This document shows positions 17,857 to 62,213 of a stretch of 64,000 bases of DNA, one piece after another (within the stretch, counting starts at the first letter, position 1; each line of letters begins with the position of its first letter). The stretch is taken from positions 450,954 through 514,953 of the forward strand of contig NZ_KQ130482.1 in NCBI RefSeq assembly GCF_001050375.1, written 5' to 3'. A program made the translations under genes and the position numbers. The notes below the pieces were generated by a model. The model made no database searches. It was not told the origin of the DNA and saw nothing but the letters and a program-made list of their open reading frames with translations. This DNA comes from Catenovulum maritimum (GTDB lineage Bacteria > Pseudomonadota > Gammaproteobacteria > Enterobacterales > Alteromonadaceae).

Positions 17857-18007
17857 TACCACACCCTATTTTAAATTGTTCTAATATTTATTATTTATTA
17901 TCTGTATCGATAATATTGTTAGCATTTTTAATTGTAAGTCAGTTTTTCTAAACTTTACACTTAAATTTAAGAAAAAAACTAGATAAAAGGGGATTTATTG
18001 ATAAGAA

Positions 18008-37961: not shown

Positions 37962-39140
37962 ATGAAAGGCTCAATGCTCGTCTCCTCAATCATTTTGTGT
38001 TGCATAGTTTGTTTTTTGACTTTCTTCTATAGAAATGCAGCTAACACACCTGAATCGACCGAACCTCAAGCCAATGTTTTAAACACAGAACAAATATTTG
38101 AGTCGCATAGTCAACAAATCACCTTACAACAAGCTAAGCTCCAATCCTCAAATGTAGATGATTGCAAAAATGAAAGATCTAAGCTTGATAGTCCAGAGCA
38201 AATTAAAATTTGCATAGACTTATTATTAGTTGAAAGACCGCTGTTAATTGATGAACTGCTGAGACTATATAGCGCTTGGGCGGTATTCGATTTGGCAAAA
38301 GCTTTAGAACAATTAGTTTTGTTACCACCTGAGGTATCAAACTATTTAATTTATGACGTTATTCGTGGTGCAAGCGGTAACAATTTACATTTAATATTAT
38401 CTTGGCTCGAATCTCAATCATTTGAATATAATGTTAAATCAGATTTAATTGTTTCTGCGTATGTTGGTGCAAGTATAGATAATCCAATATCTATATTATC
38501 CTTAGCAGAAAACGTAACCAATCCACAATTAAAGAATCAGGTAATTGACAGCATTTTAACTAATTGGGCAGAACAAGATTATGCTGCAGTATTAGCTTGG
38601 GTGGAGAGTCGAGAGCGTCCTGAAATGTATCACTATGTGAAAAAAAAATTGCTGTTAAACATGATAGAGGAGAAGCCTTCTGAGGCCTTGTACTATTTAG
38701 AATTAATGCCACAAAATCCAGATAAAACACAACTTATTGAGCGCTACGCTCATGTCAGCGCTGAAGTTGATTTAAGCTCAACTTTAGAATGGGCAAGAAC
38801 ATTAGAAGTTCAAACAGAACGAGTAACTGCGTTAAGCGCTATTTTAGATTTGGCTGTTTCACAATCCCAAGATTATCAATTTGCTTGGGAGCTTGCCTTA
38901 ACTGAAAATAATTCAAGTGCTCAACAACAAATCTTAACGCATGTAGCTCAAAATATAGTAAACCAAGATATAGCATGGATTGTTGAAAGGTTTGATAGTA
39001 TCCCTGAAAGTACTCAAGCTGATATAGCAAAGATAATTATGCAAAAGTGGCTTGAATTAGATGAAGAAGCGGCAATTGAATGGGCTAATTCATTATCCAG
39101 CCCTGAAAGTCGTAATGGAATCAAACAAAATCTTTTTTGA
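37962..39140 (+). CDS. Membrane-anchored helical-repeat protein
   Basis: The 392-residue protein starts with a single hydrophobic segment (residues 4-25) and has no clear lipobox, so it is probably an N-terminally anchored periplasmic protein. The remainder is almost entirely alpha-helical and consists of degenerate repeats of about 30-40 residues, of the type W-A-x-x-D-x-x-A-V-L-A-W-V-E-S, S-S-T-L-E-W-A-R-T-L and E-A-A-I-E-W-A-N-S-L. It resembles a TPR/HEAT-like solenoid, so a scaffold or protein-binding role is likely. No enzyme motif is visible. It belongs to the polysaccharide region by position and by the operator in its promoter. The function is unknown. Confidence 0.7.
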   Translation: MKGSMLVSSIILCCIVCFLTFFYRNAANTPESTEPQANVLNTEQIFESHSQQITLQQAKLQSSNVDDCKNERSKLDSPEQIKICIDLLLVERPLLIDELLRLYSAWAVFDLAKALEQLVLLPPEVSNYLIYDVIRGASGNNLHLILSWLESQSFEYNVKSDLIVSAYVGASIDNPISILSLAENVTNPQLKNQVIDSILTNWAEQDYAAVLAWVESRERPEMYHYVKKKLLLNMIEEKPSEALYYLELMPQNPDKTQLIERYAHVSAEVDLSSTLEWARTLEVQTERVTALSAILDLAVSQSQDYQFAWELALTENNSSAQQQILTHVAQNIVNQDIAWIVERFDSIPESTQADIAKIIMQKWLELDEEAAIEWANSLSSPESRNGIKQNLF

Positions 39141-41099: not shown

Positions 41100-44000
41100 A
41101 TGAAAATTTTAAGAAATAAAAAATTGCTGTCATTGAGAAATATATTACTCATGGGATCCTTCATGAGTATTTCAATGCAACCAGCAAGTGCGCAAGTGAC
41201 TCTTGAACAGCAAGTTAAGATTACTGACTATGGTTTACACTTTGATGGTGCTGATCTTGATTATGGTAATGTTGCTAATCCCGATACAGGTGATAAATAC
41301 GACTTTTTCTTTGGTCGAAATATTTCCGCTCATGGAGATGCGGTTAAGACCTACAAACATTATGTTTTCATGACTTGGTACCGAGGCGGTAAATATGATC
41401 GCCACGTCATGTTATCTCGATACAATACTCAAACTGGTAGTGTCGCAACCATTGAATTTCCTCATCAACACACGGGTTTTAGAGGCGATCCTTTAGTCGG
41501 CGAATCTCACAACACCATAGGTTTAGCTGTTAGCCCAGTTAATGGAACTATCCATATGGTTTATGACATGCATGCTTATGATGATAACAATCATGGCGGT
41601 AAGTTTAAAAATGATTATTTTAGATATAGCTTTAGTAAAGAAAATGCAGCTGAAGTATCTGATGCAGAATTTACTTTAGAGCAATTTGTAAAAGACACAA
41701 GTGCAGTAAGCCAAGGTGATGATGATTACAAACACCTCACAATGACTGGTTCTTTAGCTGATAAAGGTAATTTTTCACGCTTAACGTATCCTAAATTTTT
41801 TACCACTACTGATGGTACCTTATTATTATATATGCGTTTAGGTGGTAACAATAATGGTGCATATGTATTTAACCGCTATGACGCGGAAACTGAAACTTGG
41901 TCTCGATTCACCAATTTTAACTTGAACAACCAGAAATCACATGGCAATGAATACAATTGGGGCTTATATGGCAACATGAAGTATGTCAATGGTAAGCTTA
42001 GAGTCGGTTTCCAGCAGCGAAGTAGTGACAATAACGACAAATATAAATATCAAAACGGTGTCTACTACGCTTATTCAGATCATCCAGAAGGTTTTGGTGA
42101 TTGGAAAAACCACAAAGGCGAAGCCATGACTTGGCCTTTAGTCAATTCAGATGAAATCAAAGTATTTGAGCCGGGCGACTATATTAGCCATGAAGAAGCC
42201 AACTCTGTTTATATTGTTGGTAGCTTTGATTGGACGGTAACAGAACGTGGTGATGTACATATTATTAGTAAAGTTAAATCGACTGATTCTAAGCGTCCAG
42301 ATTATGAAGAAGTCTACCTTCATGCATACAAGCCGGTAGGCGCTGAAGATTTTATTGTTACTTCAGATTTTACGGGTGCCAGTGAGATATACACAGCGGG
42401 TGATAATATTTACATTGCTGGTCTTAGAAATGGACGTCCTTATGTTGAGAAAGCGAAAGGGGGCAGCAACGACTTTGTCCGCGTCTATGAAGCAACTGAC
42501 GGCCCAGTCTTTGATCACGGCACTATTTACATTAAAGACGGTAAAATCTATTTCTATTTAATGGAAAAAACGTCTGGCAGTGCTATGCCGCTGTACCTTC
42601 AAATCATTGATTTAGATCTTGAAGCTGAAGCGAATGCACCGCAAGTTGCTTTTTCTTCTAGCTCAATGACTGTTGAAGAAGGTTTTGAAAAATTAGCATT
42701 AACGATTGATGCGACTAGCCCAATTGCGGATCGCTCAATTGAATCTGTTACTTTATATTTAAATGGTGAAGAGGTAAGAGTAGATACTTCAGTTCCTTAT
42801 TTATTCGGGCATGGATCAAAACCACATGAAACTGGCGCTATGGGCTGGTTAGATAGTCATTCACCTAATCCTAATCCGCTTCCTGCAGGTGTGCATAATT
42901 TTACAGCCGTTGCTGTGGATAGTGAAGGCGATGCAGGTGTGGCAACTATGTCTTTAACTGTATTATCAAAAACGCCTATGGTGAGTTTTCCATCTAGCGA
43001 TATGACAGTCGATGAAGGTTATGAAAAATTAGCCATTACAATTGATGCAGCAACTGAAATACCAGATCGAACAATTGAATCTGTATCACTTTACATTGAT
43101 GGTGAGTTTGTTCGTACAGATGATTCAGTTCCATATTTATTCGGCCATGGATCTAAACCACATGAAACGGGTGCAATGGGCTGGTTAGATTCACACTCGC
43201 CAAACCCAGAGCCATTCACCGCTGGGACTTATATTTTTACAGCCGTCGTCACTGACACTGAGGGTGTTCAAAATGAAACCAGTATGACATTAACAGTAAA
43301 AGGCTTGCCTGAACCACCAGTTGTAAGCTTCCCAAATGAAACCCTAACTGTATATGAAGGATATGAAAAATTAGCATTTACGGTAAATGCTGAGACACCT
43401 GTTGAAGGCCGTAGCATCGAATCTGTTACTTTATATATTAATGGTGAGTTAATCCGAAAAGATACTAAACCTATTTGGAATTTTGGTCATTCATTTGCAC
43501 CACACGAAACTGGCGCTATGGGCTGGTTAGATAGACACGAACCTAACCCAACGCCATTAGGCGCTGGTGTCCATACTTTTACTGCTATTGCATCGGACAA
43601 CCAAGGTTTAGAAGGCGAAGCAACAATGACCTTGATTGTAAAAGAATTACCAGGGCCAACAGTAAATTTTGTTGAATCCGACATTCAATTATTAGATGGC
43701 TATCCTGCGTTATCTGTTACTGCCGATGTTCAAACAGCTGCAGAGGATATAGACGTTGTGAGTGTTGCTTTATACATAAATGATGATTTAACACGAGAAG
43801 TATTCGAAGCACCGTTTACTTGGGGCACGCCTGACTATGCTGATGAATTACTCGGTTTATCTGCTGGTACTCATGTATTTAAAGCTGTTGCGACAGATAG
43901 CAACAATAAAATGAGTGAAGCTAGCATGATAGTTGAAATTGGATTATTTGGTGATTTAGATAATGACGGGGATGTTGATAGGTTAGACATGCGTCAATTT

Positions 44001-44132
44001 AATTCCGCAGTGCGTGCAGGTGAAATTACTAATTCTAGATACGATTTCAACCAAGATGGTGTTGTTAATATCCGAGATATGAGTGGTATGGCACGTTTAT
44101 GTTCTCGAGCACGTTGTGCAAGTAATGATTAA
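41100..44132 (+). CDS. Ulvan lyase (PL24/PL25-type) with four C-terminal repeats and dockerin-like module
   Basis: The 1010-residue protein has a signal peptide cleaved after A31. A catalytic beta-propeller (about 32-510) opens with [10 protein letters not shown] and [10 protein letters not shown], as in ulvan lyases. H137 (GESHNTIG), H158 (YDMHAYD), Y230 (RLTYPKF) and R246 (YMRLGGNN) have the same spacing as the catalytic set I recall for PL24/PL25 enzymes. The reaction is beta-elimination at rhamnose-3-sulfate/uronate bonds. Three near-identical Ig-like modules follow (about 513-624, 626-735, 739-850), each with an invariant [11 protein letters not shown] core, then a diverged fourth (854-948). 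The last 60 residues form two 12-residue calcium loops (952-963 and 982-993), dockerin-like. A gene for a cohesin-like PEP-CTERM protein follows after 14 bases. Confidence 0.88.
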
Positions 44133-44146
44133 TTTGGAGTATTGAG

Positions 44147-44677
44147 ATGAAATTATATTCAATTTTATTAACATTGTTTTTAGCTTTTAATGCTAATGCA
44201 GGCTTGATTACAACCCAAGCGGATAAAGATAGTTACACGGCTGGGGAGACGGTAACCGTTGATTTTTTCGTTAATGATGCTAACCCTTATATAGACTTTT
44301 TGCAGTTTGATTTTGGGTTTGATGACAGTCAGCTTAGCTTTATTGATTTTAGTTGGATGGATTCAGACGAAATCTATAACTTTGGTGCATCTGGCGATGC
44401 ATACTTAGCTAGTGCCGACGAGCTTTATTTGGATGTTTTATTTTTAGATGGTTTTGCTGCAGAGTTGGGGACTTCATTTAGACTTGGGCATGTTCAATTT
44501 GAAGCTTTAGTTGATTCAGCTTCGCCTGAATTTACTCTACTTGATCAGTTTGTATCGGATATAAACTTTGTTGAAATTCCAGTTGAACAACATCAGGTCT
44601 CGGTACCTGAGCCTTCAACATTAGCATTTTTTCCATTGTTGGCGGCTATGTTTTGGGTGCGAAGAAAGGTTAAATAA
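44147..44677 (+). CDS. PEP-CTERM protein with cohesin-like domain
   Basis: The 176-residue exported protein has a signal peptide (1-18) and a beta-sandwich domain (about 20-145) with the cohesin-like opening Y-T-A-G-E-T-V-T-V-D-F-F-V, then F-D-F-G-F-D-D-S-Q-L-S-F. A PEP-CTERM tail completes it: V-P-E-P-S-T at 153-158, a hydrophobic helix (about 159-170) and the basic end R-R-K-V-K. Such tails are processed by exosortase and target the protein to the envelope or matrix. It is 14 bases downstream of the ulvan lyase, whose C-terminus is dockerin-like, so it is a candidate anchor for that enzyme. The cohesin call is by pattern, not by search. No exosortase gene is in the window. Confidence 0.75.
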   Translation: MKLYSILLTLFLAFNANAGLITTQADKDSYTAGETVTVDFFVNDANPYIDFLQFDFGFDDSQLSFIDFSWMDSDEIYNFGASGDAYLASADELYLDVLFLDGFAAELGTSFRLGHVQFEALVDSASPEFTLLDQFVSDINFVEIPVEQHQVSVPEPSTLAFFPLLAAMFWVRRKVK

Positions 44678-44702: not shown

Positions 44703-44742
44703 GTAAAAAGCCACTTCATAGTTTTGAAGTGGCTTTTTTATT
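44703..44742. terminator. Bidirectional terminator
   Basis: AAAAAGCCACTTCA paired with TGAAGTGGCTTTTT, loop of 6, with T-runs in both directions. It serves the ulvan lyase-cohesin unit and the convergent sulfatase gene. Confidence 0.9.
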
Positions 44743-49667: not shown

Positions 49668-51515
49668 ATGACTAAAGCTAGATTCAATTTACTAAACATA
49701 AGCCTTGCTATGTTATTGGCGTTATCGACTTCAGCAAAAGCTGAAGACATAGATAAATCAACTATCTGGTTCACCAATGTGCCCGATGCTACGCCAATAG
49801 CAGAAAACGCAACACGTGGTTCAGGCGTTTTCTGGGGACACATGCCTCAAAGCCAACTAAATAACGATCAAATTTTCCAACCTTGGGTTAATAGTGTTGG
49901 AGGATTTAGAAATAGAGGTTTAGATTACGTTGGTCGAGGTGAATTCGATTGGGGCTGGCGGTGGTTTTGGGATTTTGGAAATAATCCAGCGGTTGATTTT
50001 GTTCAAGATTTAGATGGCAATTACGTACAAATGGAATTTCTTGGTACGCCAACGTATAACGGTAATACGCCATCATGGCCGAGTGTTCATAGCCCTAGAT
50101 TTGAGCAATTTATGCGCTGGCAAGTGGATAAAATGTTCGAAGCAGACATTACTCATGTATTCTTTGATTCACAAACATCCTCAACACGCGCTTTACACTG
50201 GTTTGGTGGCGATTTTTCACCACATTCAATTAATGGCTTCCGTGCATATTTAAACAACAAATACACAACAGCCCAATTAAGCTCTATGGGTATTGCAAAT
50301 ATCAATAACTTTAACTATCGCACATTCTTGAAAAACCTAGGTTACACAGCTGCTACATATCGAAACGCCGCTTCTACTATATACGGTGGCGTTCCACTGT
50401 ATGCAGATTTTGTATACTTCACCAGAGAAAAATTAAATTCTGTGATGCAGTCAATATTTAACTATGTTGATCAAAAACAACCAAGTATACAAATTACCGC
50501 GACTACTTCAATTATTGAACCTAGAGGTTTTATCTTTTCTGACCGCTTAGATTTTTTCGCTGGAGAGATGGCTATTGATTCTGCAGGAAATAAAACCACA
50601 ATGCCTATTCAACCAATCTTACAGTTTAAGGCTGCTGAATATTACGATAAATCCTTAGTTTTCTTTCCATTTCCTAAAGAGTGGGGGGATTTAAGAACTC
50701 GCAATCGCCCAAATACTGCAAATATGTGGATTGTACAGGCCTATGCAATGGGGTCGATCATGACAGCGCCTGATAATGTATGGGCCAACGGTAGTGCATG
50801 GAAAATTGGCGGTGAACACTATAGCCAAGTATATCAATTTATAGATAATAACTCTGAGTTATTTGACAACTATGAAGCGGTATCAAAAGTAGGTTTTGTG
50901 TGGCCAGCTTTATCAAGCCTTAATTCTACGAACTTTAATGGCAATCCAGCTGCGCTTAACAGTACTCAGTATTTGATCGAGCAAAACATTCCTTATGATA
51001 TGCTTGTTTTCGGTGACCCTGCACGTCCAGCATCACCGAATGTTGATAAATTAAATGAATACGATGTTATTTTTACAGATAGCAATTCAGCTAATTATTT
51101 AAGTGGCTATCAGAAAAATCTGCTTACATGGAGTTCCACTCCAGTTATTGATTACGCGCAGCGAGGTACTGTTGCAGCAAATATTAGCGGTAAGGTAGAT
51201 GTTTTCATTAATGGTAATTTAAGAAACCAACTGATTAGTGCAATGCCACGACAATCGTCAACGAATAACAATGCACCATATGTGATTCACTTACTTAATC
51301 GTCGCCATAATGCCACTACCGATACTCCAATTGTGCGGAATAATGTAAAGGTAACTATCGATGCAAACCTTTTTGATGATCGAATTACCAGCGTACGTTA
51401 CCGTGCTCCAGGCGGAGTTAACAGAAATGTCCCAATAACTCGTGCACCGAATGGAGACCTTACTCTTAACGTTGGCAGAGTTGATTTGTGGGGTGTTTTA
51501 GTCGCTCAGCATTAA
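49668..51515 (+). CDS. Large secreted glycoside-hydrolase-like protein, family not recognised
   Basis: The 615-residue protein has a signal peptide (about 1-25) and is rich in Trp/Tyr/Phe, as carbohydrate-active enzymes are. It resembles clan-A-type barrel proteins such as GH42-like enzymes in the phrase PHSINGFRAYLNNKYTTAQL, followed by SMGI. Candidate acidic residues are Asp167 (HVFFDSQTSS) and Glu300 (DFFAGEMAID). A C-terminal part (about 380-615) contains a flavodoxin-like trimerisation-type segment (EYDVIFTDSNSANYL) and a beta-domain ending in DLWGVLVAQH. I cannot name a CAZy family. Local context (agarases, ulvan lyase, sulfatases) makes a polysaccharide hydrolase likely. A terminator follows, and AGGAAACTTACAC precedes the ATG. 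Confidence 0.7.
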   Translation: MTKARFNLLNISLAMLLALSTSAKAEDIDKSTIWFTNVPDATPIAENATRGSGVFWGHMPQSQLNNDQIFQPWVNSVGGFRNRGLDYVGRGEFDWGWRWFWDFGNNPAVDFVQDLDGNYVQMEFLGTPTYNGNTPSWPSVHSPRFEQFMRWQVDKMFEADITHVFFDSQTSSTRALHWFGGDFSPHSINGFRAYLNNKYTTAQLSSMGIANINNFNYRTFLKNLGYTAATYRNAASTIYGGVPLYADFVYFTREKLNSVMQSIFNYVDQKQPSIQITATTSIIEPRGFIFSDRLDFFAGEMAIDSAGNKTTMPIQPILQFKAAEYYDKSLVFFPFPKEWGDLRTRNRPNTANMWIVQAYAMGSIMTAPDNVWANGSAWKIGGEHYSQVYQFIDNNSELFDNYEAVSKVGFVWPALSSLNSTNFNGNPAALNSTQYLIEQNIPYDMLVFGDPARPASPNVDKLNEYDVIFTDSNSANYLSGYQKNLLTWSSTPVIDYAQRGTVAANISGKVDVFINGNLRNQLISAMPRQSSTNNNAPYVIHLLNRRHNATTDTPIVRNNVKVTIDANLFDDRITSVRYRAPGGVNRNVPITRAPNGDLTLNVGRVDLWGVLVAQH

Positions 51516-51782: not shown

Positions 51783-53261
51783 ATGTTGAGTATTAAAAAT
51801 AAGATATTGATTGTTGGTGGCGGTACTTCGGGTTGGATGACGGCCAGTTTACTTGCTAAAAAATGGCCAGACAGCCAAATTGAGCTTATAGAGTCAAAAA
51901 ACATAGGTACAGTTGGGGTTGGTGAAGGTTCAACCCCATACATCAAACAATTTTTTAATGCGCTTGAAATTAAAGAAGCTGATTGGATGCCGTACTGTAG
52001 TGCAACCTACAAAAACGGTATTCAATTTGTTAATTGGTCTAAAACACCAGGCTATGAGCAATATTTTCATGCTTTTTTAAGCGATCTGGATGAAAAATAT
52101 GCTTCTGAATTTGAACAGGCAACAATAGAAAGGCGCAATGGTCAAGCCGTTAAAGCCCATCCAGATGGTTACTTCTTCTTGCAAAGTTTAACTAAAGACT
52201 TACGGCAACCAGTCACTGATGCCAAAGTCGATCATGAAAATGTTTATGCCTACCATTTTGACTCAGGTAAACTTGCTGATTACCTTAAACAATATTGTTT
52301 AAACCTCGGTGTGAAGCACCAATATGTGGATGTGGAAACTGTTGAGCTTAATGCAAACGGAGAAATTGCTGCCGTTATTAGTCAAGAGCAGAAACGCTTT
52401 ACTGCAGATTTATATATTGATTGCACAGGCTTTAAAGCTTTATTAATACAGCAGCACTTAAATGAACCATTTATTCCATTTAACAACAACCTGCTTAACG
52501 ATAGGGCAGTCACAGTTGCAACTAAGGCCACGGCTCACTACCAACCGCAAACTATCTCTACCGCATTGAGTAATGGCTGGGCATGGAAAATTCCGTTAAC
52601 CACGCGAACTGGTAATGGCTATGTTTATAGCTCCAAATACATAAGCGATGAAGAAGCGACACAAGAACTAATTGAATTTGTTGGTGAAGATAATCTGATT
52701 AGTGAACCCAAAATCATTCCTATGAAAGTAGGGCGAGTAAAACGTTCTTGGGTGAAAAATTGTGTTGCCATTGGTTTGTCGCAAGGTTTTATCGAGCCAT
52801 TAGAAGCTACTGGCTTACATTTTATCCAGAGTACGATTGAAACTTTTATATTGTTATACGAGATGGGTGAAGGTACTGATGATTATCAAGAAGTTTATAA
52901 TCGTGAAATAGAGCATTTGTTTGAAAACGTGCGTGACTATATTGTTTCTCACTACCTAACTAATACTCGAAGTGATAGCGAATATTGGCGTGCTTGCCGG
53001 GAACAAATTAAAATTTCTGATTCGTTAAAAGCCCTGATGAATGCTTGGTGTAGCGGAAAAGATTTCAGGGATACTTTAGTCAAAGCTGAAATAGCTAACA
53101 TCTATCCATCTGAATCTTGGCATATGTTACTGGCTGGTATGGGATTTTTACCACCCATTGCTGGCGCGCACGAGCCCTCAATGCAAGAGCAAAAAATACT
53201 AGCGAAAATTGCTAGTGAATATCAGCATTATGTTGACTTGTATCCAAAAACACATGGGTAG
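51783..53261 (+). CDS. Flavin-dependent tryptophan halogenase family protein
   Basis: The 492-residue flavoprotein has the FAD motif VGGGTSGWM at residues 10-18, the family phrase GVGEGSTPYIKQFF and the diagnostic W-x-W-x-I-P motif (NGWAWKIPL, about residue 265). It also has GLSQGFIEPLEATGLHF. In characterised members, reduced flavin produces hypohalous acid that is passed to a lysine. Homologues are frequent beside TonB receptors and polysaccharide genes in marine Alteromonadales, where the substrate is unknown and may not be tryptophan. It starts behind GGAG and has no signal peptide, so it is cytoplasmic. It is monocistronic, with hairpins on both sides. No flavin reductase is in the window. 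Confidence 0.88.
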   Translation: MLSIKNKILIVGGGTSGWMTASLLAKKWPDSQIELIESKNIGTVGVGEGSTPYIKQFFNALEIKEADWMPYCSATYKNGIQFVNWSKTPGYEQYFHAFLSDLDEKYASEFEQATIERRNGQAVKAHPDGYFFLQSLTKDLRQPVTDAKVDHENVYAYHFDSGKLADYLKQYCLNLGVKHQYVDVETVELNANGEIAAVISQEQKRFTADLYIDCTGFKALLIQQHLNEPFIPFNNNLLNDRAVTVATKATAHYQPQTISTALSNGWAWKIPLTTRTGNGYVYSSKYISDEEATQELIEFVGEDNLISEPKIIPMKVGRVKRSWVKNCVAIGLSQGFIEPLEATGLHFIQSTIETFILLYEMGEGTDDYQEVYNREIEHLFENVRDYIVSHYLTNTRSDSEYWRACREQIKISDSLKALMNAWCSGKDFRDTLVKAEIANIYPSESWHMLLAGMGFLPPIAGAHEPSMQEQKILAKIASEYQHYVDLYPKTHG

Positions 53262-53309
53262 AAATAAATGTTGCTGGGGTAGCGTATTTTTTTGCCATCA
53301 TAACTTCTC

Positions 53310-53349
53310 TCGGATAGGCGATGCTCAGTAATGAAGATTGCCTATCCGA
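53310..53349. terminator. Hairpin between convergent genes
   Basis: A 10-bp stem TCGGATAGGC/GCCTATCCGA with a 20-base loop, between the halogenase and DUF1080 stops. On the + strand it is followed by an A-run, so as an intrinsic terminator it suits the minus strand better than the + strand only in the reverse reading of its left flank; strength is uncertain. Confidence 0.5.
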
Positions 53350-53405
53350 CAAAAAATTGTGGGATCGTTCGATGGAAGTGACGTAAATTACACAAAACTC
53401 AATTG

Positions 53406-54332
53406 CTAGAAATAGCGCGAGAATTTAGTTGGCATTTGCGTTAAATTTTTAATCTTAATATCACGAAAAGAAAGTTCAGCACCTTCTGATTGCAACTGAA
53501 TTTGACCTGACGTAAGTGGGTTACCTTTGGTGTCTTGCATGTCCTGAACAACCATTACCACTTCGCCATTTGCGACAAATACGGCTCGGTCGCCATAAGT
53601 AAATAATTCAAGTGTATTCCATTCGCCATGCGGCTTATCAACAACAGGAGATGCACTAGCATAACCGACATATCCTAGCTTGCCTGCTGGATCATAGACA
53701 GAGCGCTGCTGGTGTTCCGCACTGTTAGGAATTGGATCTCGTGAACGGATCTTACCTTTTAGATATCCGCTATCATTTCCTAGAGGAATATAATCACCTA
53801 GGTCAGTTTCTTGTATTTGATATTCGTGACAAAGTTTCCATGTGCGCCAAAATGCACCATGCTCGCCTTGGCAATGAAACAACAAACCGCTATCCCGTAA
53901 CGCGTTTAAACGAGGCTCCCATTTTTTATCTCCCCATTTTACTTGCAAACTTAAATGGTAATTTTGATAGTGTGCTTTGGTTGATATACCTCCGTATATT
54001 TCCCCCGTTACATTTAATACTGGCTCCCCAGAATCATTATTGATAGTAAAAACATCTTTTAGATTTTTCTGCCCAATCGCGTCGGCAGGATCCCCGTGAA
54101 ACCATAATTTTTCCATAGTAAATGTGTTTACTGGTAAGCCTTTGACAGAAGGGTGAGGCACTCCAAGCCAAATTTCCCAACCATCACTATTCTTATCTAA
54201 TAAGGGTTGCCAAGTGTCGCCTAACGAATGTATTACAGGGGAGGTAACTAAGTTTTTAGAGGTTGAGCAACCAGTAATAATTAATATTAATCCAATGATG
54301 AAACTAAATTTAATCTTCTGTATTTTTTTCAT
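53406..54332 (-). CDS. DUF1080 (3-keto-disaccharide hydrolase-like) lipoprotein
   Basis: The 308-residue lipoprotein (I-T-G-C22 lipobox) has one jelly-roll domain of the DUF1080/laminin-G-like class. Typical phrases are WQPLLDKNSDGWEIWLG near the start, the metal/ligand-site type SGLLFHCQGEHG, EYQIQETDLGDY, HGEWNTLELFTYGDRAVFVANG and GQIQLQSEGAELSFRDIKIK. Family members bind or hydrolyse 3-keto glycosides, or act as carbohydrate-binding modules. It is transcribed toward the halogenase gene. The role in this locus is inferred only from context. The 349 bases upstream hold a palindromic repeat element and no recognisable operator. Confidence 0.82.
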   Translation of the reverse strand: MKKIQKIKFSFIIGLILIITGCSTSKNLVTSPVIHSLGDTWQPLLDKNSDGWEIWLGVPHPSVKGLPVNTFTMEKLWFHGDPADAIGQKNLKDVFTINNDSGEPVLNVTGEIYGGISTKAHYQNYHLSLQVKWGDKKWEPRLNALRDSGLLFHCQGEHGAFWRTWKLCHEYQIQETDLGDYIPLGNDSGYLKGKIRSRDPIPNSAEHQQRSVYDPAGKLGYVGYASASPVVDKPHGEWNTLELFTYGDRAVFVANGEVVMVVQDMQDTKGNPLTSGQIQLQSEGAELSFRDIKIKNLTQMPTKFSRYF

Positions 54333-54479
54333 TATTTATAAATTTCCATTCAACAATACTTATACATGTATGTCATTACTCATGATGCTGCTTAGGCAAA
54401 GTAAATATCCACGCACAAACTACGTACTTTTGTTATTTAATAAAAGGATAGTTAACCTCAATTCGGGATCACAACTTGC

Positions 54480-54585
54480 TTTCTTGAGGGCCTTTTTCCT
54501 GATAACTGCGTTGAATTCGCTAGTAATAGCCAGCTATTACGTACGCAAATTCGCCTTGTTCTAAGAAAAAATACCTTTCAAGAAA
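54480..54585. repeat. MITE-like palindromic element
   Basis: The 106-base element is bounded by the inverted repeat TTTCTTGA/TCAAGAAA. Its arms remain complementary with interruptions (TTGAGGGCCTTTTTCC against the TTTTTTCTTAG side), and the centre is a perfect hairpin GTAATAGC-CA-GCTATTAC (54523-54540). It lies alone in the 349-base intergenic gap and encodes nothing. The form is typical of small non-autonomous elements or REP-like repeats of Alteromonadales; other genomic copies would prove it. Confidence 0.6.
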
Positions 54586-54681
54586 TAAAAATTAATAATA
54601 CCAATAACTTAATGGGGTTAGCTAATTTCTTATCTCGAGTTGAGGTTAGTTTATGCTTAGTCATCGAGGTGTGTTAATAAT

Positions 54682-55575
54682 TTAATTGGCTTCTGGTTTT
54701 ATCTGCCAAACTCTTACCCAGTCGTATGAGGTTGTACGCTGTTCTTTGTTGCCTGTTTTAATCATGCCTCCGCCTTGTGGCACAGGATTCCAGTCATAAG
54801 TTTCAATCGCCATATGAATAAATGCTGGTACGTCCCAACCTATAGGTGGCGTGATTGAATAAACGTACTCACCGTCTAAATAAAATCTGACTTCAGTTTC
54901 TGATTTCCACCAAGCTGCGTAAACATAATAACGCTCGTGATTTTTGGTTTTAGTCGTCACAGAATCTTCAATCTGAATATGATCAGGATTGTACTGATTA
55001 GTTCTGTGTATCGAGTTTGAATGGAAGATTTGATCCCAGCCTTTAGACCAATCAGCAGCATTATCTGAGCGTTTACCTACGCATTCCTGAATATCCAATT
55101 CTAACTTTTTAACTGTGTTTCCTTTAGTCATCAGCCAAAATGTTGAAGACATTTCAGTTGCGTTAGCTTTCATTCGAGTTTCGTAATACCAGCCTGGTTG
55201 GCCAGCTTCAAGTGAACGAACAATAGCACCTTGATACAAAAATTCTTTGTTTTCTATTGTTTTTTTATTTGGTAATACGCTAACTTCAACGTTTAAATTA
55301 CCCTCGGCTTCTGTGACATTTTCTGCTTTAAATAAGCCCGGTGGACGCCCAATCCATACCCAGCCATTCGCTCTAGGTTGGAGTTGCCATTTAGTCAGGT
55401 CAATATGATTATCGTTGAACTCATCAGATAAACTTTCGACCAGCTGCCAATTTAAGGCTTCAATTTCTGGCGCTTTATTTGGCTTAGTGTAGGGGCCATT
55501 TATCTCTGTTTTCGGGCTTATTATTGTACAGCCTGATAATAAAGCGATACCGCATATTAGAGTTATTATTTTCAT
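54682..55575 (-). CDS. GH16 lipoprotein, porphyranase/agarase-like
   Basis: The 297-residue lipoprotein (L-S-G-C16 lipobox) carries a single GH16 beta-jelly-roll. Catalytic motif E159-L-D161-I-Q-E164 has the non-bulged form also present in agarases and porphyranases. SLSDEFNDNHIDLTKW, IGRPPGLFKAENVT and SYDWVRVWQ are typical of the agarase/porphyranase branch. It probably cuts beta-1,4 bonds in agar or porphyran near the cell surface. It is divergent from the beta-helix gene. The start is placed at ATG 55575 because GAGGT lies five bases upstream; an in-frame ATG at 55602 lacks a ribosome site. The promoter region is shared with the operator at 55704. Confidence 0.88.
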   Translation of the reverse strand: MKIITLICGIALLSGCTIISPKTEINGPYTKPNKAPEIEALNWQLVESLSDEFNDNHIDLTKWQLQPRANGWVWIGRPPGLFKAENVTEAEGNLNVEVSVLPNKKTIENKEFLYQGAIVRSLEAGQPGWYYETRMKANATEMSSTFWLMTKGNTVKKLELDIQECVGKRSDNAADWSKGWDQIFHSNSIHRTNQYNPDHIQIEDSVTTKTKNHERYYVYAAWWKSETEVRFYLDGEYVYSITPPIGWDVPAFIHMAIETYDWNPVPQGGGMIKTGNKEQRTTSYDWVRVWQIKPEAN

Positions 55576-55703
55576 TGCTAACCTCGGGTGGATAATGTTC
55601 AAGTGTGTTTAGTCTGAATCCCATGTATAGATCCAGGTTATTTAGAATTAATTGATAAATCATTTGAACTCATGCTGCGTATAATTTAACATCAAAAGTC
55701 ATC

Positions 55704-55715
55704 ATTGTTTACAAT
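55704..55715 (+). promoter_or_regulatory. Palindromic operator ATTGTTTACAAT with -10
   Basis: A full match to the ATTGTNNACAAT core. Its second half gives TTTACA, and a perfect -10 TATAAT follows at 55729-55734 (15-bp spacer), 16 bases before the beta-helix gene start. Confidence 0.65.
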
Positions 55716-55750
55716 TAATTGATAAATGTATAATTCTAGGCGGTTCTAAC

Positions 55751-57823
55751 ATGCGATGCAAAATAATTACTTTGGCTGTGGCTTTATGCGCACTAGCTCT
55801 ACCCACAACTAGGCTTTTTGCAAAAGAGCTCTATGTTTCACCTCTAGGTAACGATAACAATAACGGCAGTGTAGATTTACCTTTTAAAACACTAGCTAAA
55901 GGTGTTTCCATATTAGCTGCCGGAGATACTTTAGTATTAAAAGAAGGGATATATAGAGAAACGTTAAAAATTACGGCAAGTGGTTCTGAAACTCAGCCTA
56001 TTAGAGTAAAAGCAGCTGATAATTCGAATGTTGTTATATCAGGTACAGAGCCATTAACGGGTTGGTCGGCTCATCAAAATAGTATATCTAGGGTCAGTGT
56101 CGCTGGAGTGAATAAGGTGGCTGATGAGACTTATTTTCAGCTTTATCACAATGGTGATTTGATGGATTTAGCCAGATATCCCAATGATCAAGACCTAAAT
56201 CGATTCACCATAGACACAATCGAGCTTGCACAAAAAGGTTCGGGTTTAAGCGTCAGCCATGCAGACATACCAGATGTAGACCTAACCTATGGTTATATCT
56301 GGTATTTAGGTTCCCATTCTGGCACAAGTTGGACACGGAAAATCACCTCATCCACCAATAATTCTCTTAACTTTGTTGAAGTAGACACAACTAAATGGCC
56401 GTTTAATCCCCATGCCCCAGTGCATCTACGAGAAGGCAACTACGGTCGTTTTTTTGTTTTCGGAAAATTAGAGCTATTAGATTACGAAAATGAGTGGTTT
56501 TATGACAAAAGCACAGACGAGTTATATTTACAAACAGCTAATGGACTCATACCTAAAGATAATGAAGTTGAAATTACAGCGCGCAAACACGCTATTCAAT
56601 TATCGGGTGATAATATTAGAATTGAAGGAATTGAAGTATTTGGTGCAAATGTACTGATAGAGGGCGATAACAACCAATTTATTAATGGCAAAATAGTTCA
56701 CGGCTTACAACGTATGGGTGAACTTAATAATACTGATGCGCAAGTTTCCGAGGGCTCAATTACCGTTTCTGGGAAAAATAGCTTAATTGAAAACAACCAC
56801 ATAGAGCACGGTTCGTTAAACGGTATCTATATTGTAGGTTGGGGTGGTAAGGGTAAAAATACAACAATTAAAAACAATGTTATTCGCAACTTTAATACCT
56901 TGGGCATTCACGCGAGTTTAATTCGTGCAACGGGCGAGGCGGCGTTGATTACGCAAAATGATATGTCGTATACGGGACGAGATGGCGTGTATTTAACTGG
57001 GATTAATTCAGAGTTTAGTTACAATGAAATATCACAAACCGCGCAGATAAATAATGACACCGGCATTTTTTATGTAACGGGTAATCAAGATGATAAAAAT
57101 GTAGTTGTCCATCATAACTGGTTTCATTCACCAGCACGTCGTTCGTATCACGATCAAAGAGTAGCAGGTATTTATTTAGATAATAATAGTAAAGGATACA
57201 CAGTCCATCACAATGTTGTCTGGAACTTGCCTTGGTCGGGTATTCAACTTAATTGGGAAAACTTTAATGATTTTATCTATCACAACACTATTTTAGATGT
57301 TAAACGTGCCATGGGCGAGTGGGTTAACGGCCATGTGCAACAAAACAACCGTGTATGGAACAATTATTCAAATACCCCAGCTTGGTTAACCAACCCAGCA
57401 TATGATATCGACAGTAGCTTAATTTCAACTAATCAAGTTAAGTACGAAGCTGATAAATCAATAAATTTTATGCCAAATGATGATTCAGAATTGCTTGATA
57501 ATGGCCGATTAATTGATGGTTTAGTACACCAATATACAGGTCCAGCTCCTGATATTGGTGCTTATGAATTACAAGGGACCAATTGGCGACCGGGTGTTAA
57601 CGCTGTACTTGATGATTGCACGAGTTGTTTAAGTGATCCTAATGCAGATCCTGTGGTTAAACCAGCGCAAGCGCCAGCGCCTGAGCCTAGCCCAGAGCCG
57701 ACTCCTAACCCTGAGCCAACACCAGAGCAGCCAAAAGAAGGGGCTACATCATCAGGTGGTTCTATGGGTTATGGCTTACTGGTTCTTTTTTTTGGATTAT
57801 TTAGGAAAAACCGTTTTAGATAA
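55751..57823 (+). CDS. Secreted right-handed beta-helix protein with GlyGly-CTERM tail
   Basis: The 690-residue protein has a signal peptide (about 1-24), then a parallel beta-helix beginning KELYVSPLGNDNNNGS and running to about 600, with repeated N-x-I-x-x turns (for example HIEHGSLNGIYIVGWGG, NEISQTAQINNDTGIFYVTG and HHNVVWNLPWSGIQL). Lyases and glycosidases of several families share this fold; I cannot assign one. A Pro-Glu-rich linker (about 635-660) leads to a terminal sorting signal: S-S-G-G-S (667-671), a hydrophobic helix (673-684) and the basic end R-K-N-R-F-R. This is the GlyGly-CTERM pattern processed by rhombosortase and linked to type II secretion. It is probably a surface-attached polysaccharide-degrading enzyme. 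Confidence 0.82.
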   Translation: MRCKIITLAVALCALALPTTRLFAKELYVSPLGNDNNNGSVDLPFKTLAKGVSILAAGDTLVLKEGIYRETLKITASGSETQPIRVKAADNSNVVISGTEPLTGWSAHQNSISRVSVAGVNKVADETYFQLYHNGDLMDLARYPNDQDLNRFTIDTIELAQKGSGLSVSHADIPDVDLTYGYIWYLGSHSGTSWTRKITSSTNNSLNFVEVDTTKWPFNPHAPVHLREGNYGRFFVFGKLELLDYENEWFYDKSTDELYLQTANGLIPKDNEVEITARKHAIQLSGDNIRIEGIEVFGANVLIEGDNNQFINGKIVHGLQRMGELNNTDAQVSEGSITVSGKNSLIENNHIEHGSLNGIYIVGWGGKGKNTTIKNNVIRNFNTLGIHASLIRATGEAALITQNDMSYTGRDGVYLTGINSEFSYNEISQTAQINNDTGIFYVTGNQDDKNVVVHHNWFHSPARRSYHDQRVAGIYLDNNSKGYTVHHNVVWNLPWSGIQLNWENFNDFIYHNTILDVKRAMGEWVNGHVQQNNRVWNNYSNTPAWLTNPAYDIDSSLISTNQVKYEADKSINFMPNDDSELLDNGRLIDGLVHQYTGPAPDIGAYELQGTNWRPGVNAVLDDCTSCLSDPNADPVVKPAQAPAPEPSPEPTPNPEPTPEQPKEGATSSGGSMGYGLLVLFFGLFRKNRFR

Positions 57824-57831
57824 ATTGAAAA

Positions 57832-57889
57832 TTTGAATTCGAAGAATTCAAATGAAAACGAATGCCGTTCATTTCAAGTGAGCGGCATT
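57832..57889 (+). terminator. Two adjacent hairpins after the beta-helix gene
   Basis: TTTGAATTC-GAA-GAATTCAAA (57832-57852) is followed by an 11-bp stem AATGCCG(TTCA)/(TGAG)CGGCATT (57861-57889). A short TTT follows; likely termination. Confidence 0.6.
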
Positions 57890-58499
57890 TCATCTCTAAT
57901 TTATGTTTTATAGTCACATGTTCACCACATAAGTGTATTGAGGTTGTTTGAGATTGAAATAGGACAACCTCATAACATTTATCTTCATTCAACCTCCTCT
58001 TATCTTATTTTCAACTTGTTCTGACGAGTGTGACAATGAAGTTAATCTCAGTTCGCTTAATTGAACTTTAGCGTAAGCCACTAAATGTAAACAAAATATA
58101 TATAGTTAATAGTGTTTTATTTTTGTTGATTGTTGACTGTGTTGTTGTTTCATTTTGCATCAAAAAATATTTTGTTAATTTTTATTTTACATTTAACTCA
58201 TGGTTATATTATTTAAGTTTAATTAAAAATTTAGTTAACTTGTTATTTTTTATGTGATTTTTGGCTTTGTTTAGTTGTGGCAGTTGATGGTGTTTTGCTT
58301 TTTTGTTGAAAGCAAATGCGTCGTCCAATACGTTTATTTGATGCTATTGGTGAGTTTATTTGATGTTTATCTTGATGTTAATTGTTGACAATTATGTGTT
58401 AACTGTGCAAATATTAACTTAGTGATAACAAAGTGACTTGAAATCGCTAACTGGCAAAGAATTTACACATTAAATACAACAAACGCTGGAGGTTGCTTT
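57890..58499. other. Long AT-rich leader of the TonB receptor gene
   Basis: This 610-base stretch without a gene contains the perfect operator at 58381-58392 and an imperfect copy ATTGTTGACTGT at 58139-58150 (10 of 12). The rest is T-rich with no ORF or RNA signature that I can support. Confidence 0.5.
58381..58392 (+). promoter_or_regulatory. Palindromic operator ATTGTTGACAAT
   Basis: A full core match with an embedded consensus -35 TTGACA (58385-58390), 108 bases upstream of the TonB receptor ATG. A bound regulator would occlude this -35. Confidence 0.65.
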
Positions 58500-61400
58500 A
58501 TGGCGACTCAATTTAAGTACAAACCTATAGTACTGATGGTTGCATCTGTACTATCTGCAAGCCAAATGGCATATGCCGCAGAAGCTGAAAATGATAAGAA
58601 AAAGAAGCAAAATGAGACAGACCCTGAAGTAATTGAGGTGACGGGTTACCGTGGTAGTGTTCTTAAATCTATGCTCGAAAAGCGAGCTACCGCTAATGTT
58701 TCTGATTCGATCTTCGCTGAAGATATCGGTAAATCAACCGACCAAAATATCGCTGATGCACTTTCTCGTGTAACTGGTATTTCGATTCAATCAGAAGGTG
58801 GTGAAGGTACTAAAATTTCTGTTCGTGGTACTAACCCTAACCAAAACGTAATTACACTAAATGGTGTGCAGCTAACGAGTGCTGGTGATAACCAAGGTGT
58901 AGACCTTTCAGCATTTTCTTCAGATATCCTATCAAAAATCACAGTTGTGAAAACAGCAAGTGCTGATCACGACGAAGGTTCTTTAGGTGCAACTGTTAAT
59001 CTTGAGACGGGTAAACCACTAAATCGTAAAAACAATGCGCGTAGCTTGACTATACAGGGTCGATACAATGGCTTGTCGGAAGAGTCTGATTATAAATTGT
59101 CAGGTTCTTTTTCTGACAAATTCTTAGATGAGACTTTTGGTTTTGCTGCAACTGTATTTAAAGAAACGCAATCGTTCCGCTCAGATCGATTCATCGTTGC
59201 TGAAAACCAATATCAAGCGGTACAAATTCCTTTAGCATCCGATCAAAATGGTGATATGTTAACCGATACGCACGCAATTTTACGTGGTGCGGCTCAATAT
59301 TCAATGTTACAAAACAAGCGAGATCGTCAAGGTGGTAACTTCGTTTTTCAATGGCTACCAACAGATACGACGAATGTCTTAGTTGATTTTAACTACAGCA
59401 AACAGACTCTAGTGAACGACGATTTAGCCATTCAAACCAGAACTCGTGCTGATAGTAGTTTATTGGAGAAAGGCGTTAAGCATGACTCTTTACCAAATAA
59501 TGATGATATCGCTAATTTCAGTGATCCTGCCTTAGACTGGATTCATATTAATACAGATACGCATACGGTAGATAAGTATGTTAATCGTTTTGGTGACGGT
59601 GGCTATAACCGTGCAGAAGGTATCAAAGATATCGTCAATAAATCAGGTGGTATTCGCATAGAGCAGTATGTCACTGACGATTTAAGAATGGACTTTAATG
59701 TTAGTTATTCTGAAACGGTTGAAAACCCAGGCCCATCAAGTTTTATCACAATGCAAGGTTTCCAAATTCCACAGACAAGACTAGCGCTTGCTGGTGAATA
59801 CGGTACAAATGGTGGTATTCAACCTGTTGGGTATGACTGTAGAGACAAAGCTAACGGTGTCTGTGAACTTGAATTTGGTAATGGTTTAATTGTACATAAT
59901 GACCCTGACACAAACTTTGATAATGACGTTATTACAGGTTTTAATCCAGATGACCGCGCCGCAACCAACATAGGTTATATGGGACGCACAGTTCGTAGTA
60001 TTGAAGATACTTTTAAAAGCGCATCTTTAGATTTTGATTGGGATGTTGAATTTGGTCCTTTAGTTAAACTTGAGTTTGGTGCTAAAGCTAACCAGCGTAC
60101 AAAATTTGTCGATAATCAAGTAGGTAAGTTTGATAATACTACCCAAGCGACGACAGTGCCTGTATTTGATAATGACGGCAACTATGTTACGGATAAAGTT
60201 ATTAAAGCTGGCGATACAGTTACTGAAATTTTAGGTTCAGAGATAGCCAGCACGGAAGAATTTCCGCACAACAACTTTATGGAAGAATTAGGTGTAAGTC
60301 GCAACGCTGCGACAGACGGTTGGCCTATGATCGACTCTACGCTTGCATTTGAACGTGCATTAGGCTCGGCTGATGCGGCTTTAACCGTTAATAACTCGCA
60401 AACGCGTGAAATGAACATTGACACGCAAGCGGCTTACTTAAAACTGAATTTTTCAGCAATTGATGATAGGTTAACTGCAGATGTCGGTTTACGTTACGTT
60501 AAAGATGAAGTAAATACTTGGGGTTATTCGGGTACTACTTATCAAACTGATCCTGTTTTATTACACCGTATTTTTGACCCTTTCTATGCGCTGCAATTAC
60601 GTAATAGCGCAAACCCTTCATGTCATGGCCAATCAACCGCGAATACAGGGCCTTACGAATTAGCCGATGGTTTCACTACTGCAGACGGCCAAACTTCAGT
60701 CGAATACGACACAACTACGCCAGGTAGAGAATACGCTTATGCACGTGTCGACGGGCTAGGTTGGTATCACAATGGAACACTTGATGACAGTAGTGATGAT
60801 ATTCGGCTTAAGAAGCTAATCGACACTAACGAAGCATGTTACGACCCATACACTGATATGTATCAAGGTTTTGCAGTAAATGCGCAAGGCCAACCTAATG
60901 TCGGCTGGGTAACTTTTGCACGTCATTCAGATGTCACTACCTCTACTAACTACCATATGTTTACTGATCAGCATTTAAATGCTGGCACAGATGAATTGGT
61001 TCGTGATCGCAAAGATATTCAAAACTTCAGAACAACTGGCAACAATGAATACAGCATGCTATTGCCAAGTTTGAACCTAAATTTTGCGCTTTCAGACGAC
61101 TTGATAACACGTTTTGCTGTATCAAAAACTATGTCTCGTCCTAGAATTGACTCTTTAAAACCTGGTTTTAGTGTTACTGAATCGGTGTGGGGAACACGAG
61201 CGGGTAATAGGGTTACCTTGAGTAATCCAAAATTAGTGCCATTAGAGTCTAAAAATTTAGATTTATCTGTTGAATGGTACTTCAATAAGACAGGTATGGT
61301 CGGTGCTGCTTTCTTCTATAAAGATATGACAAACTTTGAAGAAACCGTTGATTATAAAGCTTACCTAGATGATCTGCGTATCGCAAATTTGGATGGTTAC

Positions 61401-62213
61401 AATGCTGATAACTTGTTAAAAACACAAGCAGAAGTGATTGAAGACTTTAGTTCAGACGAAGATAAAATGGGCGTTTGTTTCCCTAAACGTGCGATTGCTG
61501 ACCAAGTTCGTCAAGATTACTTTATCTCAGGTGATTTCGATAACGAAGGTGGTGTAACTACTCAAGAGTTACTTGACAAGTGTGCGCTATTTAATGTTGA
61601 GGAAATACGCAATGGTAAAGGCGCTGAGATTGCTGGGGTTGAGTTGCAGTACCAACAAAGTTACGACTTTTTACCAGGGCTTTGGTCTGGCTTAGGCATC
61701 AACGCTAATTATACTTATCAAGAATCACAACAAGAAGCGGATGCACAAGCTATCGCTTTAGGTTTAGCAGCGCTGCCATCTGAAAGAACACCAACTCATA
61801 GTTATAATGCGACTGTCTACTGGGAAAAATTTGGCCACCAGTTGCGTTTATCTTATCGTGGTAAGTCTGATGAATTAGTTCAGACGTCTTGGGGCGAAGG
61901 TGCCTTATGGCAAGAAGGCGACACTGGTCTAGATTTTAACGCGAGTTATAAAATCAATAACCAAATGACAGTCTCTTTCCAAGCTTTAAATATTACGGAT
62001 ACTGCAACCCGTCATTATTACACAAGTCGAAATATGTGGATGGGGGATTATATGTTGAATGATGATGGAAGTCAGATTCTAGAAGGCGGTCTTCCAGTAG
62101 AAGCTCCATTTGATGAAGGTAACGCATTAGTTGACGACGTATACAAAGGTCGAACTCAGATGATGTATAAAACGGGTACAAATTACCGCCTTAACTTACG
62201 TGTTAACTTTTGA
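58500..62213 (+). CDS. Large TonB-dependent receptor
   Basis: The 1237-residue outer-membrane transporter has a signal peptide cleaved after A26. A TonB-box-like EVIEVTGYRGS follows. The plug domain (about 55-165) has DQNIADALSRVTGISI and ISVRGTNPNQN. A very long barrel with big extracellular loops ends in the membrane-type sequence YRLNLRVNF with a terminal Phe. Such large receptors import oligosaccharides in gammaproteobacterial polysaccharide loci; no SusD-type partner is adjacent. GGAGG lies just before the ATG. A surface lipoprotein gene starts 18 bases downstream, so the two are likely co-transcribed. The substrate is inferred only from the ulvan/agar context. Confidence 0.95.
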   Translation: MATQFKYKPIVLMVASVLSASQMAYAAEAENDKKKKQNETDPEVIEVTGYRGSVLKSMLEKRATANVSDSIFAEDIGKSTDQNIADALSRVTGISIQSEGGEGTKISVRGTNPNQNVITLNGVQLTSAGDNQGVDLSAFSSDILSKITVVKTASADHDEGSLGATVNLETGKPLNRKNNARSLTIQGRYNGLSEESDYKLSGSFSDKFLDETFGFAATVFKETQSFRSDRFIVAENQYQAVQIPLASDQNGDMLTDTHAILRGAAQYSMLQNKRDRQGGNFVFQWLPTDTTNVLVDFNYSKQTLVNDDLAIQTRTRADSSLLEKGVKHDSLPNNDDIANFSDPALDWIHINTDTHTVDKYVNRFGDGGYNRAEGIKDIVNKSGGIRIEQYVTDDLRMDFNVSYSETVENPGPSSFITMQGFQIPQTRLALAGEYGTNGGIQPVGYDCRDKANGVCELEFGNGLIVHNDPDTNFDNDVITGFNPDDRAATNIGYMGRTVRSIEDTFKSASLDFDWDVEFGPLVKLEFGAKANQRTKFVDNQVGKFDNTTQATTVPVFDNDGNYVTDKVIKAGDTVTEILGSEIASTEEFPHNNFMEELGVSRNAATDGWPMIDSTLAFERALGSADAALTVNNSQTREMNIDTQAAYLKLNFSAIDDRLTADVGLRYVKDEVNTWGYSGTTYQTDPVLLHRIFDPFYALQLRNSANPSCHGQSTANTGPYELADGFTTADGQTSVEYDTTTPGREYAYARVDGLGWYHNGTLDDSSDDIRLKKLIDTNEACYDPYTDMYQGFAVNAQGQPNVGWVTFARHSDVTTSTNYHMFTDQHLNAGTDELVRDRKDIQNFRTTGNNEYSMLLPSLNLNFALSDDLITRFAVSKTMSRPRIDSLKPGFSVTESVWGTRAGNRVTLSNPKLVPLESKNLDLSVEWYFNKTGMVGAAFFYKDMTNFEETVDYKAYLDDLRIANLDGYNADNLLKTQAEVIEDFSSDEDKMGVCFPKRAIADQVRQDYFISGDFDNEGGVTTQELLDKCALFNVEEIRNGKGAEIAGVELQYQQSYDFLPGLWSGLGINANYTYQESQQEADAQAIALGLAALPSERTPTHSYNATVYWEKFGHQLRLSYRGKSDELVQTSWGEGALWQEGDTGLDFNASYKINNQMTVSFQALNITDTATRHYYTSRNMWMGDYMLNDDGSQILEGGLPVEAPFDEGNALVDDVYKGRTQMMYKTGTNYRLNLRVNF

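Follow-up and report, generated by a model that had tools for sequence, protein, structure and literature searches.

The two-gene unit

The window, i.e., the whole stretch of DNA that was analysed, comprises 64,000 nucleotides of the Catenovulum maritimum genome and includes a compact unit of two genes on the plus strand. The first gene is a 1010-aa open reading frame (P0001; 41100..44132, +) encoding a PL24 ulvan lyase that carries Ig-like repeats and has a dockerin at its C-terminus (Pfam BNR_4, Big_7, and Dockerin_1). The second gene (P0002; 44147..44677, +) encodes a protein of 176 aa that combines a single cohesin domain with a PEP-CTERM sorting signal. Both reading frames lie where the original prediction had put them, with a gap of 14 nt in which a Shine-Dalgarno-like GGAG precedes the cohesin gene (44136..44139, +). 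An intrinsic terminator with a 14-bp stem plus a T run (44705..44738, +) ends the unit.

The lyase begins with a type I signal peptide that has no lipobox (approximately residues 1-31; 41100..41192, +). The beta-propeller catalytic domain (41193..42620, +) aligns to residues 24-506 of 6byp, a short ulvan lyase and characterised PL24 enzyme; the match covers residues 29-507 of P0001 (E 4e-233), which is full-length homology of the catalytic domain and identifies the enzyme as PL24. An Ig-like region with four Big_7 stretches (42627..43934, +) extends from the catalytic domain to the dockerin.

The dockerin occupies residues 948-1009 (43941..44126, +) and includes a pair of 12-residue calcium loops that lead into helices, the pattern of the Pfam family PF00404 (Dockerin_1). 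In the first loop (D952-D963; 43953..43988, +) the aspartates at positions 1, 5, 9, and 12 are invariant among 55 relatives; in the second (D982-D993; 44043..44078, +) D982 and D993 are invariant, and N984, D986, and G987 are conserved in at least 91% of the same relatives. Dockerin_1 matches residues 951-995 above its cut-off (23.5 versus 22.9 bits), and the top PDB matches of a dockerin family profile (A4) are dockerins. The C-terminal tail of the lyase is thus a true dockerin, with its loops exactly at the residues first proposed. Beyond the region that can be aligned to classical dockerins lies a C-x4-C tail (C1001-C1006, CSRARC; 44100..44117, +), in which both cysteines are invariant among the 55 relatives and which is the mark of this dockerin subfamily.

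The cohesin protein

The small downstream protein has the layout of a PEP-CTERM protein: a signal peptide (residues 1-18; 44147..44200, +), a PEP motif, a transmembrane helix, and a basic RRK end (44603..44671, +). The NCBIfam model TIGR02595 scores it at 20.5 bits against a cut-off of 16. The region between the signal peptide and the sorting signal (residues 19 to about 148; 44201..44590, +) is the cohesin domain. Because the single sequence of P0002 matches no cohesin in Pfam or among PDB sequences, this assignment required a family profile (A3) of 50 homologues. In a search of PDB sequences with A3, scaffoldin cohesins come first (3l8q, E 9e-10), and 18 of the 50 relatives match Pfam Cohesin (PF00963) directly (best 5.7e-7). 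The AlphaFold (AF2) model of P0002 has a mean pLDDT of 90.8. All of its first 50 PDB matches in Foldseek are cohesins, as are the first 45 in VIA-align (Z up to 12.8, to 6kgc_A, with 123 residues aligned at 2.9 A). Profile, model, structural comparison, and TIGR02595 agree in supporting the proposed order of signal peptide, one cohesin, and PEP-CTERM, and the structure prediction that the original prediction had suggested as a check returned a cohesin fold.

Cohesins share a likeness of fold with some carbohydrate-binding modules. The conserved neighbourhood could therefore exist without physical contact between the two proteins, with the beta-sandwich of the PEP-CTERM protein serving another role (e.g., carbohydrate binding). 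A one-chain AlphaFold model of an orthologous pair (L055) is compatible with this reading: both domains are folded confidently in the read-through chain, but the pTM of 0.57 is too low to fix their relative placement, and structural matches cover the cohesin half only. That chain was modelled with 13 linked rows plus unlinked ones, with TAA read as G and TAG as S in some rows. The top structural and profile matches, however, are cohesins rather than carbohydrate-binding modules, and the neighbouring gene is a dockerin carrier whatever its enzyme type, so that an arrangement without contact is very improbable.

A second pair and an exosortase in the same genome

The C. maritimum genome (4.55 Mb, with the window at C1:450954-514953) has exactly two strong dockerin matches, the PL24 lyase and a GH86-type enzyme, and each gene is directly followed by a cohesin/PEP-CTERM gene. 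The GH86-type enzyme is a protein of 1836 aa with porphyranase-type, CBM6, and Big_2 domains; 18 nt after its gene lies the gene for a 189-aa PEP-CTERM protein of the P0002 family. The chance that two of two strong dockerins would adjoin a PEP-CTERM gene is about 4e-6, assuming about eight PEP-CTERM genes among 4000 genes. The genome also encodes one exosortase (G000:C14:91166-91867), which TIGR02602 detects above its cut-off with 227 bits. Profile A3 has just two full-length matches in this genome, both of them single-cohesin adaptors, and no scaffoldin with several cohesins was found among them. The searches that the original prediction had suggested, for the same gene pair and for an exosortase elsewhere in the genome, thus both gave matches.

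Six weaker Dockerin_1 matches also occur in this genome. The four that were inspected (L003, L004, L005, and L007, leaving out L006 and L008) lack the full two-loop domain with a C-x4-C tail and were rejected. One of them (L003; G000:C18:64031-67096) is a Calx-beta protein that ends in a dockerin-like segment with a calcium loop and is followed by a lipoprotein whose beta domain resembles a cohesin by eye. This lipoprotein has no cohesin match in Pfam or among PDB sequences; the gene pair is possibly a lipoprotein form of the same arrangement.

Distribution of dockerins, cohesins, and exosortases

A profile search for the dockerin (two loops plus the invariant C-x4-C tail) detected it in 175 of 397 Alteromonadaceae species or genomes. 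Among the fetched regions of a first sample, 51 of 69 dockerin genes adjoin a cohesin/PEP-CTERM gene, which lies directly downstream in 50 cases and directly upstream in one. One further neighbour (at L105), a PEP-CTERM protein without cohesin similarity, was excluded both from this count and from profile A3. In a second sample, drawn from lower-scoring dockerin matches and searched with a profile of the cohesin domain only, 15 of 20 have an adjacent cohesin. The two samples together place 66 of 89 dockerin genes beside a cohesin/PEP-CTERM gene, whereas in roughly one case in four the dockerin gene has no cohesin next to it. Outside the family dockerins are rare, with 14 positive genomes among 369 drawn across the class, and an adjacent cohesin/PEP-CTERM gene is also present in several of those 14 genomes and in Methylomonas sp. 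LW13.

The three components tend to occur together. In raw counts that ignore kinship, 134 of 145 cohesin-positive genomes have the dockerin and 139 of 145 have an exosortase; among dockerin genomes, likewise with kinship ignored, the cohesin is found in 130 of 158 with an exosortase versus 4 of 17 without one. A recheck of these 17 with Pfam PF09721 gave no exosortase match over cut-off. In 13 dockerin genomes neither an exosortase nor the cohesin was found, which suggests that the dockerin there has another use or is a relic. Genera g20, g12, g28, and g38 (e.g., G019 and G187; L108) have dockerins without an exosortase and without a cohesin/PEP-CTERM protein, although g12 and g28 give weak matches (E about 1e-4); in these four genera the dockerin may belong with another anchor, or it may be a relic.

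Client enzymes, cassette exchange, and covariation

The enzymes that bear the dockerin are diverse and include PL24 ulvan lyases, ExeM/NucH nucleases, GH86-type and GH98 enzymes, an S8 subtilase, and M43 peptidases. The nuclease assignment derives from NF033681, which the three nucleases compared with it match at E 1e-190 or better; the ExeM-GG model is NF033680. The original prediction of an enzyme-anchoring pair for algal polysaccharide is supported, with a correction: the domain assignments, the recurrence of the pair, the exosortase, and cassette exchange support the pair, but nucleases and proteases carry it too, and its proposed specificity for algal polysaccharide does not hold. The same cassette accompanies many secreted enzymes of unrelated kinds within the family and looks instead like a general way of tethering.

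Cassette exchange is apparent within one genome (G239), in which a nuclease locus (L064) and a GH86-type locus (L068) have no detected DNA similarity except for one block of 751 bp that is 95.5% identical. This block (L064:9485-10235; reverse strand in L068) runs from the first dockerin codon to the cohesin stop, with an offset of 0 at both ends. Judging from its boundaries and identity, it is a recent and exact cassette transfer, which implies that dockerin and cohesin move as one unit. Among 50 adjacent pairs, with phylogeny not fully corrected, dockerin identity correlates with cohesin identity (r 0.61 versus a permutation maximum of 0.14). Under the same incomplete correction, covariation also holds inside enzyme classes (p 0.001); for PL24 enzymes, controlling for the catalytic domain leaves a partial correlation of 0.73. 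Covariation within classes and the joint movement of the cassette suggest pair specificity.

A looser arrangement would be a general network in which every dockerin enzyme can bind whichever cohesin/PEP-CTERM adaptors its cell contains, with adjacency serving for co-expression only. Some genomes are of the kind that such a network would produce. One replicon (G194:C2) has dockerins at 17986, 343138, and 619999 and a cohesin/PEP-CTERM gene at 131416, none of them adjacent, and one adaptor may serve several enzymes there; L055, the source of the orthologous pair modelled above, combines four dockerin enzymes with two cohesins. Where dockerins outnumber cohesins or are unlinked to them, the choice of partner may not be strictly one to one. 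As a general account the network is nevertheless doubtful, if a serious contender, since paired dockerins and cohesins covary also among enzymes of a single class and travel together as a cassette.

A model for enzyme sorting in trans

Very probably, the lyase and cohesin genes exemplify a two-gene cassette for enzyme tethering. The lyase would be exported by its Sec signal peptide without an anchor of its own and with the calcium-loop dockerin at its end. The cohesin of its partner from the same operon would then bind this dockerin, presumably in a calcium-dependent manner. By analogy with its family, the PEP-CTERM tail would keep the cohesin protein in the inner membrane until cleavage by exosortase, which would hand the protein on to the cell surface or to the exopolysaccharide matrix. 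The anchoring and final location of the cohesin protein are predicted from its PEP-CTERM signal and from that family. The enzyme would be sorted in trans, with the small adaptor bearing the sorting signal and the enzyme only the matching dockerin.

In its broader form, the model describes bipartite sorting in which the cohesin adaptor is the substrate of exosortase, and a secreted enzyme becomes a client whenever it gains the dockerin end of the cassette. Such a system would be present in about 40% of the sampled Alteromonadaceae species and sporadically in other Gammaproteobacteria, and it would have spread by exact cassette capture onto lyases, agarase-type enzymes, nucleases, and proteases. 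This generalization is probable, if less secure than the reading of the single gene pair.

Binding could also take place without surface anchoring. Exosortase might release the small protein, leaving the complex as a secreted enzyme that is either soluble or bound to the matrix, or the cohesin might act as a periplasmic chaperone or secretion partner. The single cohesin shares an operon with its enzyme, as such a partner could, and PEP-CTERM is linked to exopolysaccharide genes (PMC1569441). This outcome is rather unlikely, however, as none of the 69 dockerin enzymes has a lipobox, versus 33 of 352 other ORFs. Extracellular nucleases of the ExeM/NucH type elsewhere also carry a GlyGly-CTERM sorting signal, which is of the same tripartite kind as PEP-CTERM (PMC3237569), so that tethering looks like a trait shared by these homologues. 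Their GlyGly-CTERM is consistent with the dockerin standing in for an anchor, as the model of sorting in trans would have it.

Relation to known systems

The pair would work like cellulosomal anchoring, yet it does not have the makeup of a cellulosome. In the type I and type II cohesin-dockerin systems of cellulosomes, as in the single-cohesin anchors OlpA and OlpC of Clostridium thermocellum and the autonomous CohG of Ruminococcus flavefaciens, the enzyme has a duplicated calcium-loop dockerin and its partner a cohesin fold, and cohesin anchors to the surface, as it is proposed to do here. The hosts in the present case, in contrast, are Gram-negative marine bacteria, each adaptor has one cohesin, no scaffoldin was seen, and PEP-CTERM/exosortase takes the place of SLH or sortase attachment. 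The dockerin has a C-x4-C tail, enzyme and adaptor genes are adjacent and exchanged as one cassette, and the clients include nucleases and proteases besides polysaccharide enzymes. Non-cellulosomal modules in glycoside hydrolases of Clostridium perfringens (2jh2/2w1n/2ozn) and in an Archaeoglobus fulgidus cohesin (2xdh) are among the structural or profile matches; those of C. perfringens reside inside large enzymes, whereas the cohesin here would be a dedicated sorting adaptor. With PEP-CTERM/exosortase and GlyGly-CTERM/rhombosortase sorting (PMC1569441, PMC3237569), the likenesses are the PEP-CTERM on the small protein and, elsewhere, ExeM/NucH-type nucleases as GlyGly-CTERM clients; in the present pair the enzyme itself lacks a CTERM, and the signal would be given in trans by the cohesin protein.

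A dockerin repeat on "long" PL24 ulvan lyases had been noticed earlier and called type II (Kopel et al. 2016, as cited in PMC11101340). The claim that no such lyase-anchor pair had been described accordingly holds for the cohesin/PEP-CTERM partner, which goes unmentioned in the literature searched, but not for the dockerin on the lyase. The search returned no paper joining dockerin, cohesin, and PEP-CTERM, or "cohesin domain" and PEP-CTERM; an earlier mention may exist. What cohesins and dockerins do outside cellulosomes has been called not known (PMC5244752). If correct, the model provides a concrete and testable job for these modules and for the obscure PEP-CTERM/exosortase pathway, and would amount to an equivalent, in Gram-negative bacteria, of cellulosomal anchoring. 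The model also suggests a way for major marine degraders of polysaccharide and DNA to hold enzymes and products close to the cell. The fate of PEP-CTERM proteins past exosortase is poorly known. Being small and modular, the pairs would readily supply orthogonal tethers of marine bacterial origin.

Other genes of the window

Two further genes of the window (37962-39140, 392 aa; 54682-55602, 306 aa) have no Pfam family over cut-off. The gene at 49668-51515 likewise has none, but its product matches a solved alpha-agarase over nearly its full length (9m0b, E 3e-132). The region at 51783-62213, which adjoins the ulvan and agar genes, encodes a tryptophan-halogenase-family protein, a 3-keto-disaccharide hydrolase, a beta-helix protein, and a TonB receptor.
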